Origin: Desulfovibrionaceae bacterium | GTDB lineage: Bacteria; Desulfobacterota; Desulfovibrionia; Desulfovibrionales; Desulfovibrionaceae | Assembly (NCBI GenBank): GCA_009773665.1 | Contig: WSYE01000033.1 | Coordinates: 1 to 42,940 of the forward strand | DNA: 42,940 nt | Reading direction: 5' to 3' | Shown: piece after piece, positions 12,251 to 41,764 of the stretch | How positions within the stretch are numbered: position 1 is the stretch's first letter | How the letters are laid out: every line of letters begins with the position of its first letter | Notes under the pieces: generated by a model | What the model was told of the DNA's origin: nothing | What the model saw: the letters and a program-made list of their open reading frames with translations, nothing else | Databases searched by the model: none | Translations under genes and position numbers: made by a program

Positions 12251-12275
12251 GCTGTTGTTTGGGGAAGCGTGCGCG

Positions 12276-12379
12276 CGTGGCGCACTCAAAATACGTTCAT
12301 ACAATGCGTGGTTCTAAACAAAGAGAACCATTCATTTTTTCGAGATAGACAAGTTTATGTTTTTCTCGGACGCGACGCC
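12276..12379 (-). repeat. Intergenic hairpin element, copy A
   Basis: A member of the 105-109 bp family described at 17270, 22349 and 35359. The outer end reads ACTCAAAATACGTTCAT, matching copy B (CCTCAAAATTCGTTCAT). The other end, GGACGCGACGCC, matches copy C. On the minus strand the core hairpin has arms CGAGA/TCTCG around an ACATAAACTTG loop, then AATGAATGGTTCTC. A second stem, TGGTTCT/AGAACCA (12309-12330), lies inside and is followed by T-rich sequence. It ends 12 bases from the hemerythrin stop. Confidence 0.65.
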
Positions 12380-12390
12380 AGATCGCCCTG

Positions 12391-17265: not shown

Positions 17266-17269
17266 GGCC

Positions 17270-17378
17270 TAGTGTCTCGTCCTCAAAATTCGTTCATCCT
17301 GCATATATGCCCAAATAACGAGAATCATTTATTTTATCATTGAAAATCATACTCATGTTTTTCAAGAATGCTACGCTA
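17270..17378 (-). repeat. Intergenic hairpin element, copy B
   Basis: 109 bp filling the whole gap between the DivIVA-like stop codon (its TAG is the last three bases) and yggU. Ends are TAGTGTCTCGTCCTCAAAA on one side and TAGCGTAGCATTCTTGAAAA on the other strand, recognisable imperfect inverted repeats bounded by TA. The core hairpin has arms TTGAAAA/TTTTCAA (17340-17346, 17359-17365) around ACATGAGTATG. Next on the minus strand comes ATAAAATAAATGATTCTC, the box shared by the other copies. Confidence 0.75.
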
Positions 17379-17894
17379 ATCCCGCCCCTCGACGAAGGTG
17401 AACTCCCCGTCGGACTGCCCCGAGGCCGAAGACGTACCGGAGGACTCCAGCAGCCGGAAATGGTCTTCCAGCAATTTGCGCAGCTCCAGTTCGAAGGCTT
17501 CGCGCTGGGCGCGCATCTCGCCGATTTCCTCGAAGATGCGGGCCTTCATGAGGTTGGCGTCGGCTTTTATGCGCGCGGCCTCCAGGCGGGCGTCTTCCAG
17601 AATGCGCTGCGCGTCGCGCCGGGCGTTGCCGTGGATTTCCTCCACGATCTTGCGCCCGGCGGCCAAAGTGCCGCGCATGTCCGAAGCTGGCTGGGAGAGG
17701 GCAGGGTCCGGGCTGCGCGAAGCCTGCACGCGTTCGAGTTCCACCAGACGCTCCATGAGCCTGCGGTTCTCGTCGGCGGCCTCGCCCAGCGCCTCGGCGG
17801 CGTCGTGCATGACCAGGTCCACCTCTTCGGTGCAGTACCCGCGCATGCAGCGGTTGAATTTCTTTCCCAGGAGGTCGATCTTGGAGACCGTCAC
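17376..17894 (-). CDS. DivIVA-domain coiled-coil protein
   Basis: A 172-residue protein. The N-terminus (TVSKIDLLGKKFNRCMRGYCTEEVDLVMHDAAEAL) is the DivIVA-type start that targets membranes, with the usual 'F-R-GY-EVD' spacing. A long coiled coil follows to about residue 150, then a Ser/Gly tail. DivIVA-like proteins organise growth poles or septa; in this phylum the role is unproven. The start is GTG at 17894 with GGGAGA upstream, 13 bases after the yggT stop. The yggT-divIVA-yggU order is a common envelope cluster. Confidence 0.85.
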   Translation of the reverse strand: MTVSKIDLLGKKFNRCMRGYCTEEVDLVMHDAAEALGEAADENRRLMERLVELERVQASRSPDPALSQPASDMRGTLAAGRKIVEEIHGNARRDAQRILEDARLEAARIKADANLMKARIFEEIGEMRAQREAFELELRKLLEDHFRLLESSGTSSASGQSDGEFTFVEGRD

Positions 17895-22278: not shown

Positions 22279-22348
22279 GGATGTTACGACTCATACCAGC
22301 CCGAGCGCCTCGTCACCACAGTTTTCGCAGGAAAAGGCTCTGGCTGCA

Positions 22349-22456
22349 TGTGCCGCGCTTTTGAAAAACATGAATATGGTTTTCAAAAGTAAAATAAATG
22401 GCTCTCTTGGGTTGGGCTCATGAACTGTACGCGCGAACCATGGGGACGCGAGACTA
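22349..22456 (+). repeat. Intergenic hairpin element, copy D
   Basis: 108 bp in the opposite orientation to copies A-C. The core hairpin is the best formed: CTTTTGAAAA (22358-22367) pairs with TTTTCAAAAG (22380-22389) around ACATGAATATGG, followed by TAAAATAAATGGCTCTC. The far end is GGGGACGCGAGACTA, in which CTA is the complement of the TAG stop of the zinc-ribbon gene. It occupies most of the space between that gene and the amidase gene. Confidence 0.75.
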
Positions 22457-22696
22457 AAGAAAGTCCGGGTCGATGCCAGCCCTGCCGCTGGCGGTCATGA
22501 GCTTCATAAACCGCACGGTCTTCTCGTCGGCAGGAACCACCGGAAAACGCTGATGGCAGGCGTCGCACTGGGCCATGGTGGGCTTGGTGGGTGCGATGAG
22601 GGGCACCTCGCGCACGCAGTACGGACACGGATACAGGTAAACAAGCTCCAGCCCGCTGGGCTTGACCGGGGAGACGGGCTTCTTCTTCTCGGACAC
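22454..22696 (-). CDS. Small zinc-ribbon protein
   Basis: An 80-residue cytoplasmic protein with two Cys pairs, CPYC (near 24) and CDAC (near 44), which should bind one zinc. A basic, proline-containing N-terminus (SEKKKPVSPVKPSG) and a short helical C-terminus flank them. The start is GTG at 22696 with GGAGG 8 bases upstream, and the gpmI stop is 3 bases before, so it is the last gene of rsfS-gpmI. The role is unknown; such proteins often bind nucleic acid or act as adaptors. Its stop codon is part of repeat element D. Confidence 0.8.
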   Translation of the reverse strand: MSEKKKPVSPVKPSGLELVYLYPCPYCVREVPLIAPTKPTMAQCDACHQRFPVVPADEKTVRFMKLMTASGRAGIDPDFL

Positions 22697-26738: not shown

Positions 26739-26868
26739 ATGCGTTCAAGTTGCAACGACGAGTGCCACGCCTGTGAACAACATGAACATGTGAGCTCATG
26801 CAAAATTCATCGCAGCTGCAACCCGAGCAAAAGTGCGAGTGGGTAACATGATGGGATAATTGCGGATT

Positions 26869-26900
26869 CCAAAGGGCGAAGCTCTTTGGCCGCCGGAGGC
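26869..26900. repeat. Dispersed-type hairpin ending in CCGCCGGAGGC
   Basis: CCAAAG pairs with CTTTGG across 9 bases, followed by CCGCCGGAGGC. The complementary phrase GCCTCCGGCGGCC occurs again at 33780-33792 next to another hairpin. This kind of gene-flanking phrase is common in Desulfovibrio genomes (from memory). Confidence 0.5.
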
Positions 26901-26910
26901 GTTCCCCTAC

Positions 26911-27020
26911 TGCAAATTATGCAAATTCCTCATGTATTTCACAAACAAAACAAATGGTTCTCATGGTTTCTGTTCATAGATCGTATGACCTGATCTCAAA
27001 ACTCCACACAGGAAACCTTC
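26911..27020 (+). repeat. Possible degraded intergenic element, copy E
   Basis: The stretch ACAAAACAAATGGTTCTCATG (from about 26946) closely matches the box of copy D and of copy A on its minus strand. It is preceded by a bulged TGcAAAT/ATTTCA stem around a CTCATGT loop. The ends are not recognisable, so limits are approximate. Confidence 0.35.
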
Positions 27021-35036: not shown

Positions 35037-35358
35037 GGCCCTTCTCCTTGACGGCGAGGCGCATTCGGGACGCAGCACTCGCAAACTGGCGCTTATCAAA
35101 GCGAAATTGCTGGATTCTCCATTGGTTGGAACAGGAAGTGTCCCTTATCCAACGATCAAGTTTAGGAGAATCGCCTGAAATGTCCAGCGAAAACGGCGAG
35201 CGTCCGGAGGTGTCTGGCAAAAGTCACACCGTGCGAACACAAACTCACATTACGCGGCCCGTGCGTTCAGGCTAAAGCCCGACTCCTTGGCCGAAGCCAT
35301 GTCCCGGCGCAACACCCCCACCGCGCCGCACCATCATTCGCCTGCTCCAGTCAGCGCT
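35037..35358. other. galU upstream region
   Basis: About 320 bases between galU and repeat element C. It must contain the galU promoter, but I see no clear -35/-10 or sigma-54 match and no coding frame with a binding site. Confidence 0.5.
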
Positions 35359-35465
35359 CGTGTGGCATCCTCAAAATAATTACCTGTGAATTTTGAGGAT
35401 AAGAATCTGAAATTATTATTTTTATCCCTGAAATACATATTTATGTTTTCAGGGACGCGACACTA
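35359..35465 (-). repeat. Intergenic hairpin element, copy C
   Basis: 107 bp ending in the glmM TAG stop (CTA at 35463-35465). The core hairpin TCCCTGAAA/TTTCAGGGA (35425-35433 with 35447-35455) surrounds ACATAAATATG on the minus strand. A second perfect 11-bp hairpin, ATCCTCAAAAT/ATTTTGAGGAT (35367-35377 with 35390-35400), lies near the other end. The glmM-side end reads TAGTGTCGCGTCCCTGAAAA, nearly the inverted repeat of the far end of copy B. Confidence 0.75.
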
Positions 35466-36815
35466 GCGCAAATGTTCCTTGAGCGTCCCGGCCAGGGAGT
35501 CGGCCAGAGATTTCACCTGTGTCGAATCGCAGCCTTCCACCATGATGCGGGCCACGGACTCCGTGCCGGAATAGCGCAGGAGCACCCGCCCCTTGCCGCA
35601 CAGGGAGGCCTCGGCGTCCTTGACGGCCTGCACGACCGCCGGGGCCTGCTCGAAGGGGATCTTGCGCTCCACGTGCACGTTCACCAGCACCTGGGGGTAC
35701 GGTTCCAGGAGGTGCGCCAGCTCGGAGAGCGGCTTGCCCCGCTCCAGCATGATGCGGATGAGTTGCAGCGCGGCCAGGGTTCCATCGCCGGTGGTCGCGT
35801 GGTTCTTGAAGATGATGTGCCCGGACTGTTCGCCGCCAAGCACCGCACCCTCGCGCTGCATGGCCTCGAACACGTAGCGGTCGCCGACGTTGGTGCGCAA
35901 GAGCCGCCCGCCGCGCTCGTTCATAAACACTTCCAGGGCCAAGTTGCTCATCACCGTGGACACCAGGAGGTTGCCCGGCAACTCTCCCTTCTCCATCAGG
36001 TCCAGTGCGCAGATGGCCATGATCTGGTCGCCGTCCAGCACGTTGCCCTTCTCGTCCACCACGATCACACGGTCTGCGTCACCGTCCAGGGCGATGCCGA
36101 TGTCCGCGCCGGTCTCGCGCACCATCTGCGCGGTGACGTTGGGATAGAGCGAACCGACCTTGCGGTTGATGTTCTTGCCGTCGGGCTCCACGCCGAGCTT
36201 GATCACCGTGGCTCCGAGTTCCTCGAAGATGAGCGGCGAAACGCGGTAGGCCGCGCCGTTGGCGCAGTCCAGGACGATCTTCAGGCCGTCGAACTTAAGT
36301 TCTGCGGGAATGGTGGACTTGAGGTACACGTTGTAGCGGCCTGGGCTGTCCTGAATCTTGAAAGCACGGCCCACTTCCTCGGGCGCTGGGTATTCCCAGT
36401 CGCAACAGTCGGCCATGACGCGCTGGGCGATGCGGTCCTCGGCCTCGTCGGGCAGCTTGAAGCCGTGGCGGTCGAAAAACTTGATGCCGTTGTCCATGTA
36501 GGGATTGTGCGACGCGGAGATCACCACGCCCACGTCGGCGCGCATGGACCGCGTAAGGAAGGCGATGGCTGGGGTTGGCAGCGGCCCCACCAGGAACACG
36601 TCCATGCCAGAGGCGCAAAAGCCCGAGGCCAGCGCGTACTCGAAAATGTAGCCGGAAAGGCGGGTATCCTTGCCAATGACCACTTTGTGGCGGCCACTGC
36701 CGTTGCGAAAGTGCGCTCCCGCCGCAAGCCCGAGACGCAGGGCCACTTCGGGAGTCATGGGGTGGATGTTCACCTGCCCGCGCAATCCGTCGGTTCCAAA
36801 AAGGCGTTTATTCAT
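35463..36815 (-). CDS. glmM: Phosphoglucosamine mutase
   Basis: A 450-residue enzyme converting glucosamine-6-phosphate to glucosamine-1-phosphate for UDP-GlcNAc synthesis. The N-terminus is [12 protein letters not shown], the phosphoserine loop is [16 protein letters not shown] near residue 100, the Mg loop is DGDADR near 240, the sugar loop is GGEQSGHI near 325 and the phosphate-binding RYSGTES near 415. The start at 36815 has AGGAG 6 bases upstream. It ends the ftsH-folP-cdaA-cdaR-glmM run, the classic c-di-AMP/cell-wall neighbourhood. The stop codon lies in repeat element C. Confidence 0.97.
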
Positions 36816-41671: not shown

Positions 41672-41764
41672 GGAAGCGTATCGTCACCGGTGTGGCGCAC
41701 GGTCTTCAAAACCGTTGGGCGGCTCATACCCGCCGGTAGGTTCGACTCCTATACGCTTCCGCCA
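41672..41764 (+). tRNA. selC: tRNA-Sec (UCA anticodon)
   Basis: 93 bases with encoded CCA. The 8-bp acceptor stem is GGAAGCGT/ACGCTTCC, the anticodon stem-loop ACGGT-CTTCAAA-ACCGT carries TCA, and a long variable arm has GGGCGG paired with CCCGCC. The T stem is 5 bp with loop TTCGACT. The 8+5 acceptor/T arrangement and UCA anticodon identify selenocysteine tRNA. The genome should therefore encode selenoproteins such as formate dehydrogenase or hydrogenase. It ends directly against the argH stop codon. Confidence 0.96.

Follow-up and report, generated by a model that had tools for sequence, protein, structure and literature searches.

The window, a stretch of 42,940 nucleotides, is one whole contig of a Desulfovibrionaceae genome (G000; 3.0 Mb, 66 per cent complete). 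It carries a selenocysteine tRNA gene and five copies of a dispersed repeat. The copies were scored with R1, a covariance and structure model of 28 copies that were aligned without structure and found partly by blastn. The limits of copies A to D below are those of the R1 model.

12272-12381, plus strand: copy A, 91 bits with R1; ends diverged (GCGT...ACGC)
17269-17379, plus strand: copy B, 95.8 bits with R1; TA adjoins the body at both ends
17337-17369, plus strand: 3′ hairpin of copy B, its arms flanking CATACTCATG; the lower stem covaries in the family
22347-22457, minus strand: copy D, 96.2 bits with R1; absent from the close relative G003
26760-27012, minus strand: fifth copy, a long form, E 2.3e-5 with R1; limits read from the sequence
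35357-35466, plus strand: copy C, 87.1 bits with R1; divergent interior with two strong hairpins
35425-35455, plus strand: 3′ hairpin of copy C, TCCCTGAAATACATATTTATGTTTTCAGGGA
41672-41760, plus strand: selenocysteine tRNA gene, Rfam RF01852, 83.9 bits

Copies A to D all have a CTAGTGTsGCG-like sequence at the 5′ end and its inverse at the 3′ end, and a hairpin lies immediately inward of the latter. An earlier note, made from the letters alone, had described these four and missed the fifth. Direct reading confirmed where it placed them and in which orientation, and the end sequences it quoted and the near-constant element size were correct. Its hairpin loop, ACATRARTATG, was also right and is read on the other strand. 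The box it gave as TAAAATAAATGGYTCTC fits copy D well and copies A and B in part, but copy C has a different linker. When the window was searched with the short TIR pattern alone, allowing 3 mismatches, 14 matches were found against 11.4 expected, which is not significant.

The flanks of these loci are 84-98 per cent identical between G000 and G003. The G003 site orthologous to copy A lacks the element, with a messy junction. Copy B is also present in G003, in diverged form. A minus-strand frame of 203 codons to the right of copy B has its TAG stop in the CTA that ends the copy on that side. The empty site for copy D reads GGCTATAGAAAG, and its TA is part of the TAG stop of a called minus-strand gene of 80 aa. 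Copy C has a 61-bp orthologue that has been shortened internally. The fifth copy has an insert of ~140 bp (about 26791-26930) inside the hairpin loop, with CATG on both sides.

The repeat is abundant beyond the window. Blastn with copy B returned 29 other places in G000 at E ≤ 3.3e-4, and the search for further copies that the earlier note had proposed gave 65 distinct places with R1 at E ≤ 1e-6. At E ≤ 10 there are 135 R1 matches, many of which are the same palindrome on the other strand. We measured 87 copies, 52 from G000 and 35 from 2.42 Mb of G003. The span is 111 bp in 36/87 and 110 bp in 29/87 (65/87 together), which leaves a body of 105 or 104 bp once the CTA and TAG on its flanks are taken off. 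An element this short, with a body of ~105 bp, no coding capacity and many dispersed copies, has the build of a MITE.

Other sizes exist as well. Related elements with the same TIRs span 44, 61, 64, 84 and 177 bp, and those in G134, G240 and G254 (L279-L285) run from 131 to 287 bp. The minimal forms of 44 to 64 bp resemble fused ends with little more, the 44-bp one being L175 in G006. The same TIR also encloses other interiors, often GC-rich hairpins, in L097-L102 and L178-L180 (G020) and in L279-L285; L102 folds into five successive hairpins. The long form measures ~250 bp, against the ~105-bp body of the short form. A second repeat of ~140 bp (TGAGnCTCnTGCAAAA...TTTTGCAAGTTCCT-like) occupies the hairpin loop in L103 and in the fifth copy of the window, and occurs also at G003 C6:172358-172505 and elsewhere. 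An automatic test placed the box and the 3′ TIR around 2/8 copies of this repeat (L103 and the G003 C6 one) and missed the window copy. The ~140-bp repeat is perhaps a MITE in its own right with CATG as its target, or else the central part of a long form that is mobile as a whole.

Filled and empty sites were compared for 55 entries (53 distinct copies, with D and B entered twice), and for 28 of them (26 distinct) the examined G003 DNA contained both flanks. In this comparison of G000 with G003 as a pair, with no outgroup, the element is absent from G003 at 8/26 distinct comparable sites (A, D, L022, L029, L047, L049, L187 and L189). Others are common to both genomes (e.g. B, L031, L034, L037, L056 and L181), and the remaining sites are either shortened in G003, as for C, or too rearranged to judge. 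The empty orthologous sites for which the earlier note had suggested looking were thus found, but several of the eight junctions are messy.

The cleanest junctions are those of L029 and L187. At L029 the empty site CCGG-TA-GTCACGG corresponds to the filled CCGG-TA-[element]-TA-GTTACGG, and at L187 TTC-TA-ACCC corresponds to TTC-TA-[element]-TA-ACCC. In both filled/empty pairs a target-site duplication of TA, clean on both sides, surrounds a body GTGTsGCG...CGCGACAC of ~105 bp. The junctions of D, L189 and L047 fit with one altered TA, and L047 also differs beyond the TA; those of A, L022 and L049 are messier. At A, L022, L047 and L049 the empty sites differ by additional or absent bases, and TIR-like sequence persists in some of them; in G003, what follows CTAG at L047 and L049 is similar to the TIR. 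Deletion in G003 is therefore possible at these four. A 15-bp direct repeat, GGAAGTTCCCCCGGC, stands outside both ends of L049 (G000 C43:52453-52562), and a similar sequence occurs once in G003.

Across the family, TA is found at both ends in only 14/87 copies; 24 have TC at the 5′ end and 12 have GA at the 3′ end. With positions taken from the model ends (n=87), the base adjoining the body is A in 49, C in 27, G in 6 and T in 5 copies on the 5′ side, and T in 57, G in 18, C in 8 and A in 4 on the 3′ side. Changes from A to C at the 5′ end (27/87) and from T to G at the 3′ end (18/87) outnumber transitions, and A to C is not the change expected from simple decay. At L189 and L047 the filled copy has the changed flank base and the empty site has TA.

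An alternative on which these junctions bear is a mobilising enzyme from IS5 or another DDE family with 4-bp target duplications (CTAG/YTAR). Many copies do end in CTAG, and at L029 the empty site has GTAG, as do the two sides of the filled one. The available text of PMC3189936 describes a duplication of CTAG or YTAA for MITEPsy1 of Pseudomonas. The L187 target, however, was CTAA and became CTAG on the left and CTAA on the right, which fits a duplication of TA (or CTA), while a 4-bp duplication needs a mutation. The IS with matching ends also encodes an IS630 transposase (see below), and no IS bounded by these TIRs was seen at 19 DDE_Tnp_1 (PF01609) loci, among the matches listed. We consider a 4-bp family extremely unlikely.

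Many copies adjoin stop codons. Genes were called with a simple codon model, which calls about 31-81 per cent of each stretch coding, mostly 71-81 per cent. The TAG of the TIR is the stop of a long frame in 56/87 copies. We discarded this count as proof of stop-codon targeting, since 64-77 per cent of sampled TA, CTAG, CTA or TAG sites in G003 match too, a high share that is due to long open frames everywhere in this GC-rich genome. Among the empty G003 sites, the insertion TA forms part of a called gene's stop codon at 7/8 (the exception is A), and at 6/8 the frame has at least 100 codons (that of D has 81). In G003 as a control, native stops of frames of at least 100 codons account for 423/4000 sampled TA sites (10.6 per cent) and 407/804 CTAG sites (50.6 per cent). 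Given that share of native stops among CTAG sites, a preference for CTAG explains most of the stop-codon landing. The body starts with G at both ends, so that insertion in TAG or TAA restores TAG. For frames of at least 60 codons, 59 ends of the 56 copies have a frame-ending TIR TAG, 39 at the 3′ end and 20 at the 5′ end (both in 3 copies), a split uncorrected for TA being lost more often on the 5′ side.

The fold of each window copy was set against 200 dinucleotide shuffles. On the element strand none of the shuffles folded as well as A or C, 5 did as well as D and 16 as well as B; on the other strand the numbers were 10 for A, 72 for B, 15 for D and 0 for C. The fold of copy C has a z of -5.5. 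Covariation was assessed in two alignments: A4, the 28 model copies, and A5, 31/35 G003 copies (the other 4 were excluded for unusual length or a low score). No A5 copy is in the R1 model, but some are orthologous to copies that are. Pairing in helix 2 reaches 95.3 per cent of cells in A4 and 93.5 per cent in A5. Over the whole structure, A4 has 28 double-change cells against 13.2 in shuffles, and A5 has 52 against 18.1. The number of pairs with double changes and the number of pair types in A4 are not beyond shuffles (66 and 103 of 500 as high), and in A5 15/500 and 1/500 shuffles are as high. Slid controls were far lower for both alignments in paired cells, double-change cells and covariation score, though such scores can be inflated by kinship among sequences.

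The inner stem is almost constant, and the variation sits in five lower pairs, with 207 cells TA, 58 other Watson-Crick, 3 GT/TG, 10 AC/CA and 16 other. On these small counts, paired replacement with few intermediates would fit palindrome correction at the DNA level no worse than selection on RNA. In two copies from another genus (G182) the hairpin letters largely differ, the pairing is kept, and the 13-base box AACCATTTATTTT is identical.

The same observations could be read as a conserved functional RNA or 3′-UTR element, inherited vertically and kept for its structure. The well-paired helix 2, the double changes above shuffles, the identity of the box despite differing hairpin letters and the frequent nearness to a stop codon all agree with this. 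Wobble pairs are of little help, as the 3 GT/TG cells of the lower stem are no excess on the given strand and the 10 AC/CA cells correspond to GU on the opposite one. Vertical inheritance is hard to reconcile with unrelated flanks, with the proportion of comparable sites that are empty in a close relative, and with ends that are those of an IS630. Moreover, an Rfam 15 scan of the window returned no family at gathering score for the element, and tRNA-Sec was the sole match. We regard a functional RNA as very unlikely. The dispersed RNA structure mentioned in the earlier note is not needed to explain the dispersal, and the covariation of the hairpin between copies does not by itself show an RNA role.

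R1 matched all six same-genus genomes at E ≤ 0.01 (4, 30, 91, 12, 3 and 14 raw matches, which include palindromic double hits). In the same search of 32 other genomes only G020 was positive, weakly, with 6 matches. The restriction to the window's genus suggested by this first search was too narrow: a later R1 search took in 39 chosen genomes, G005 and 38 from outside the genus that were TIR-positive, and 16 of them matched, from genera g1, g31 and g33 and weakly from g15 and g29. The TIR pattern CTAGTGTNRCGTCC occurs in 44/297 genomes of the order and 16/55 genera, and its reversed control gave scattered ones and twos in the same order. Among the genome contigs scanned, the 3′ hairpin pattern had no match. 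The TIR pattern there gave five stretches, three with related elements in records labelled Desulfovibrio sp. isolate W18 and two that look like chance. Two TIR-pattern matches in viral contigs showed no recognisable element. Among the papers listed in literature searches, titles and abstract openings gave no description of this repeat family.

A candidate source of mobility was found elsewhere in the order. In G070, inverted TIRs 1129 bp apart enclose a 348-aa gene, the protein of which matches the NF033545 IS630 transposase (E 1.6e-73) and PF13358 (E 3.6e-25). The IS body is 1123 bp in G070 and G109 and 1122 bp in G147, with TA at both ends; the ends read TA-GTGTTGCGTCC in G070 and G109 and TA-GTGTTGCGTTC in G147. 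In G221 a larger inverted repeat containing TAGTGT was recovered. We searched for the G070 protein in the 44 TIR-positive genomes and found matches in 12. Full-length, uninterrupted copies are present in four of these, G070 itself, G109 (79 per cent identity), G147 (65 per cent) and G221 (62 per cent), and the other 8/12 are fragments, distant matches or stop-containing. G109, G147 and G221 come from other genera of the family and G070 from elsewhere in the order.

The MITEs and these IS630-family elements have in common the GTGTTGCGTCC ends and a subterminal match. At positions 12-20, the 5′ MITE ends are nearer to the right end of the G109 IS in 69/87 copies (left 8, ties 10), and the 3′ ends are nearer to its left end in 80/87 (right 0, ties 7). 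Over the first 20 bases, the MITE consensus agrees with the G109 IS at 16 (5′/right) and 15 (3′/left) positions (15 and 12 when swapped), with the G147 IS at 16 and 15 (swapped 15 and 13), and with the G070 IS at 14 and 14 (swapped 15 and 12). The 5′ consensus matches the right end of the G070 IS at 14/20 and its left end at 15/20, so the 5′ assignment fails with G070. L003-type copies have 18 identical terminal bases in common with the G109 IS. The ends of the repeats mostly copy the two different subterminal sequences of this IS, and the IS630-family element of 1122-1123 bp is the likely autonomous parent. The ACCATTTATTTT region of L181, L038, L049, L052 and L149 resembles positions 764-782 of the G070 IS (L273 about 1330-1348) over 18-19 bases (blastn E about 2e-4 to 3e-3); the resemblance may go back to an IS interior since lost, or be accidental.

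Within the window's genus the picture is different. A search of 8 genomes for PF13358 found none in G000, and matches only in G003 (a short piece) and in G020, from another genus. The G070 transposase had no match in G000, G001, G002, G004 or G006; across the 6 genomes of the genus searched with this protein, only a stop-containing stretch in G003 matched, at 46 per cent identity. G005 was covered by PF13358 only, and the 66 per cent completeness of G000 limits how far absence can be read. A transposase source in the same genome or genus, which is not essential for a MITE, therefore amounts to none in G000 and a relic in G003. The earlier note had suggested looking for a transposase with the same terminal repeats; an IS630 with these TIRs and TA flanks does exist elsewhere in the order, but the genus of the window yielded no intact copy. 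The copies in this genus look orphaned, with the proviso that G000 is incomplete.

L251, an IS630 copy in G020, ends differently (GAGCATATTAATTTTGAAAA), which rules it out as the parent; no pair of ends emerged for L253, the second PF13358 copy in that genome. Local TIR-pair scans for an IS in G003 returned only long-span pairs with weak matches, which we took as chance. Separately, L265, L262 and L268 (G003 C5, C1 and C16) are identical over 1634 bp and represent a DDE_Tnp_1 IS with a 458-aa frame. One of the three lies ~20 bp from L172, a TIR-bounded 111-bp element with a different interior.

Hairpins near the ends and an intergenic position are also seen in REP/REPIN-type elements, paired hairpins that are moved as single-stranded DNA by a RAYT (Y1 tyrosine) transposase, and the terminal CTAG is slightly like REP tags as these are generally known. 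Y1_Tnp (PF01797) was found in 0/8 genomes, however, by a search that was positive in 5/14 known genomes used as a control, and both the TA duplication and the IS630-like ends point away from such a system. We give REP/REPIN next to no chance.

The earlier note's MITE-like mobile repeat is borne out by the 65 places, the 8/26 empty sites, and an IS630 with the same TIRs and TA flanks. Our reading, to which we assign a probability of about 0.92, is that the repeats are MITEs derived from an IS630-family insertion sequence and unable to move on their own. As such they are ordinary in kind and follow a known mode, like RUP and Correia elements. Their unusual traits are the near-constant length, the well-kept hairpin and the frequent landing on stop codons.

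We infer mobilisation in trans. The MITE would have kept ~20 bp resembling each IS end around a mostly unrelated, hairpin-bearing interior. By analogy with the biochemistry of the family, an IS630 transposase supplied in trans would bind the ends GTGTYGCGTYC and excise the element, which would then insert into TA, often within CTAG or CTAA, with duplication of the TA. Where the G of the body recreates TAG at a TAG or TAA stop, the protein would be unchanged and the insertion could survive. The transposase source in the genus may have been lost, or may lie outside the sampled genomes, and the present copies would be products of past bursts.

A more speculative and rather doubtful extension concerns form. 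Length might be under mechanical selection: IS630-type MITEs of unrelated bacteria, about 105 bp long in this family, 105 bp in the short Correia form and 107 bp in RUP, would have converged on about ten helical turns, perhaps the spacing at which the transposase best pairs the ends. The stem-loop would then be a DNA feature kept by concerted palindrome correction, and the G-ends and CTAG preference would provide safe landing on stop codons. Elements with the same TIR that span 44 to 287 bp count against selection on length.

With these results, a MITE family whose likely parent has been traced is on record for Desulfovibrio-like bacteria. The natural variants in length and hairpin, from 44 to 287 bp with one TIR, make the effects of spacing and hairpins on IS630 transposition testable. 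Restoration of TAG suggests a route by which transposons could spread at low cost in gene-dense, GC-rich genomes.

Several known systems resemble the family in part. ISY100 and other Tc1/mariner/IS630 elements duplicate a TA target and encode a transposase with HTH and DDE domains, as described in the available text of PMC2170065. The same TA duplication and HTH and DDE transposase are seen here, but ISY100 is an autonomous IS and is not proposed as the parent. The BOX repeat of pneumococcus encodes the stop codon at the 3′ end of 36 genes, according to the part of PMC3049150 available, and is a precedent for a repeat that supplies gene stop codons, as often here; it differs in its modular boxA/B/C structure and in its proposed parent IS. 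Later cases include Nezha and MITEPsy1 (excerpts of PMC3189936, PMC3049150). The Correia/NEMIS elements of Neisseria have, in the accessible portion of PMC2229807, a short form of about 107 bp (empty sites put its mobile part at 105 bp), a long form of about 155 bp with an internal insert, and a target-site duplication with TA at the ends. Compared by description, our family likewise has a short form, with its ~105-bp body, and a long form of ~250 bp. The host is different, the ~140-bp insert here lies inside the hairpin, and the IHF site and promoters are Correia features. A further such system is RUP, the repeat unit of pneumococcus. The available sections of PMC2229807 and PMC3049150 describe it as a 107-bp intergenic element with about 110 copies per genome, a TA target, TIRs like those of IS630-family IS, and IS630-Spn1 as its proposed mobiliser. 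Compared by description, the two agree in size, TA target, IS630-like TIRs and intergenic position. They differ in host group, and the family described here adds a covarying subterminal hairpin, sequence resembling both IS ends, and long forms.
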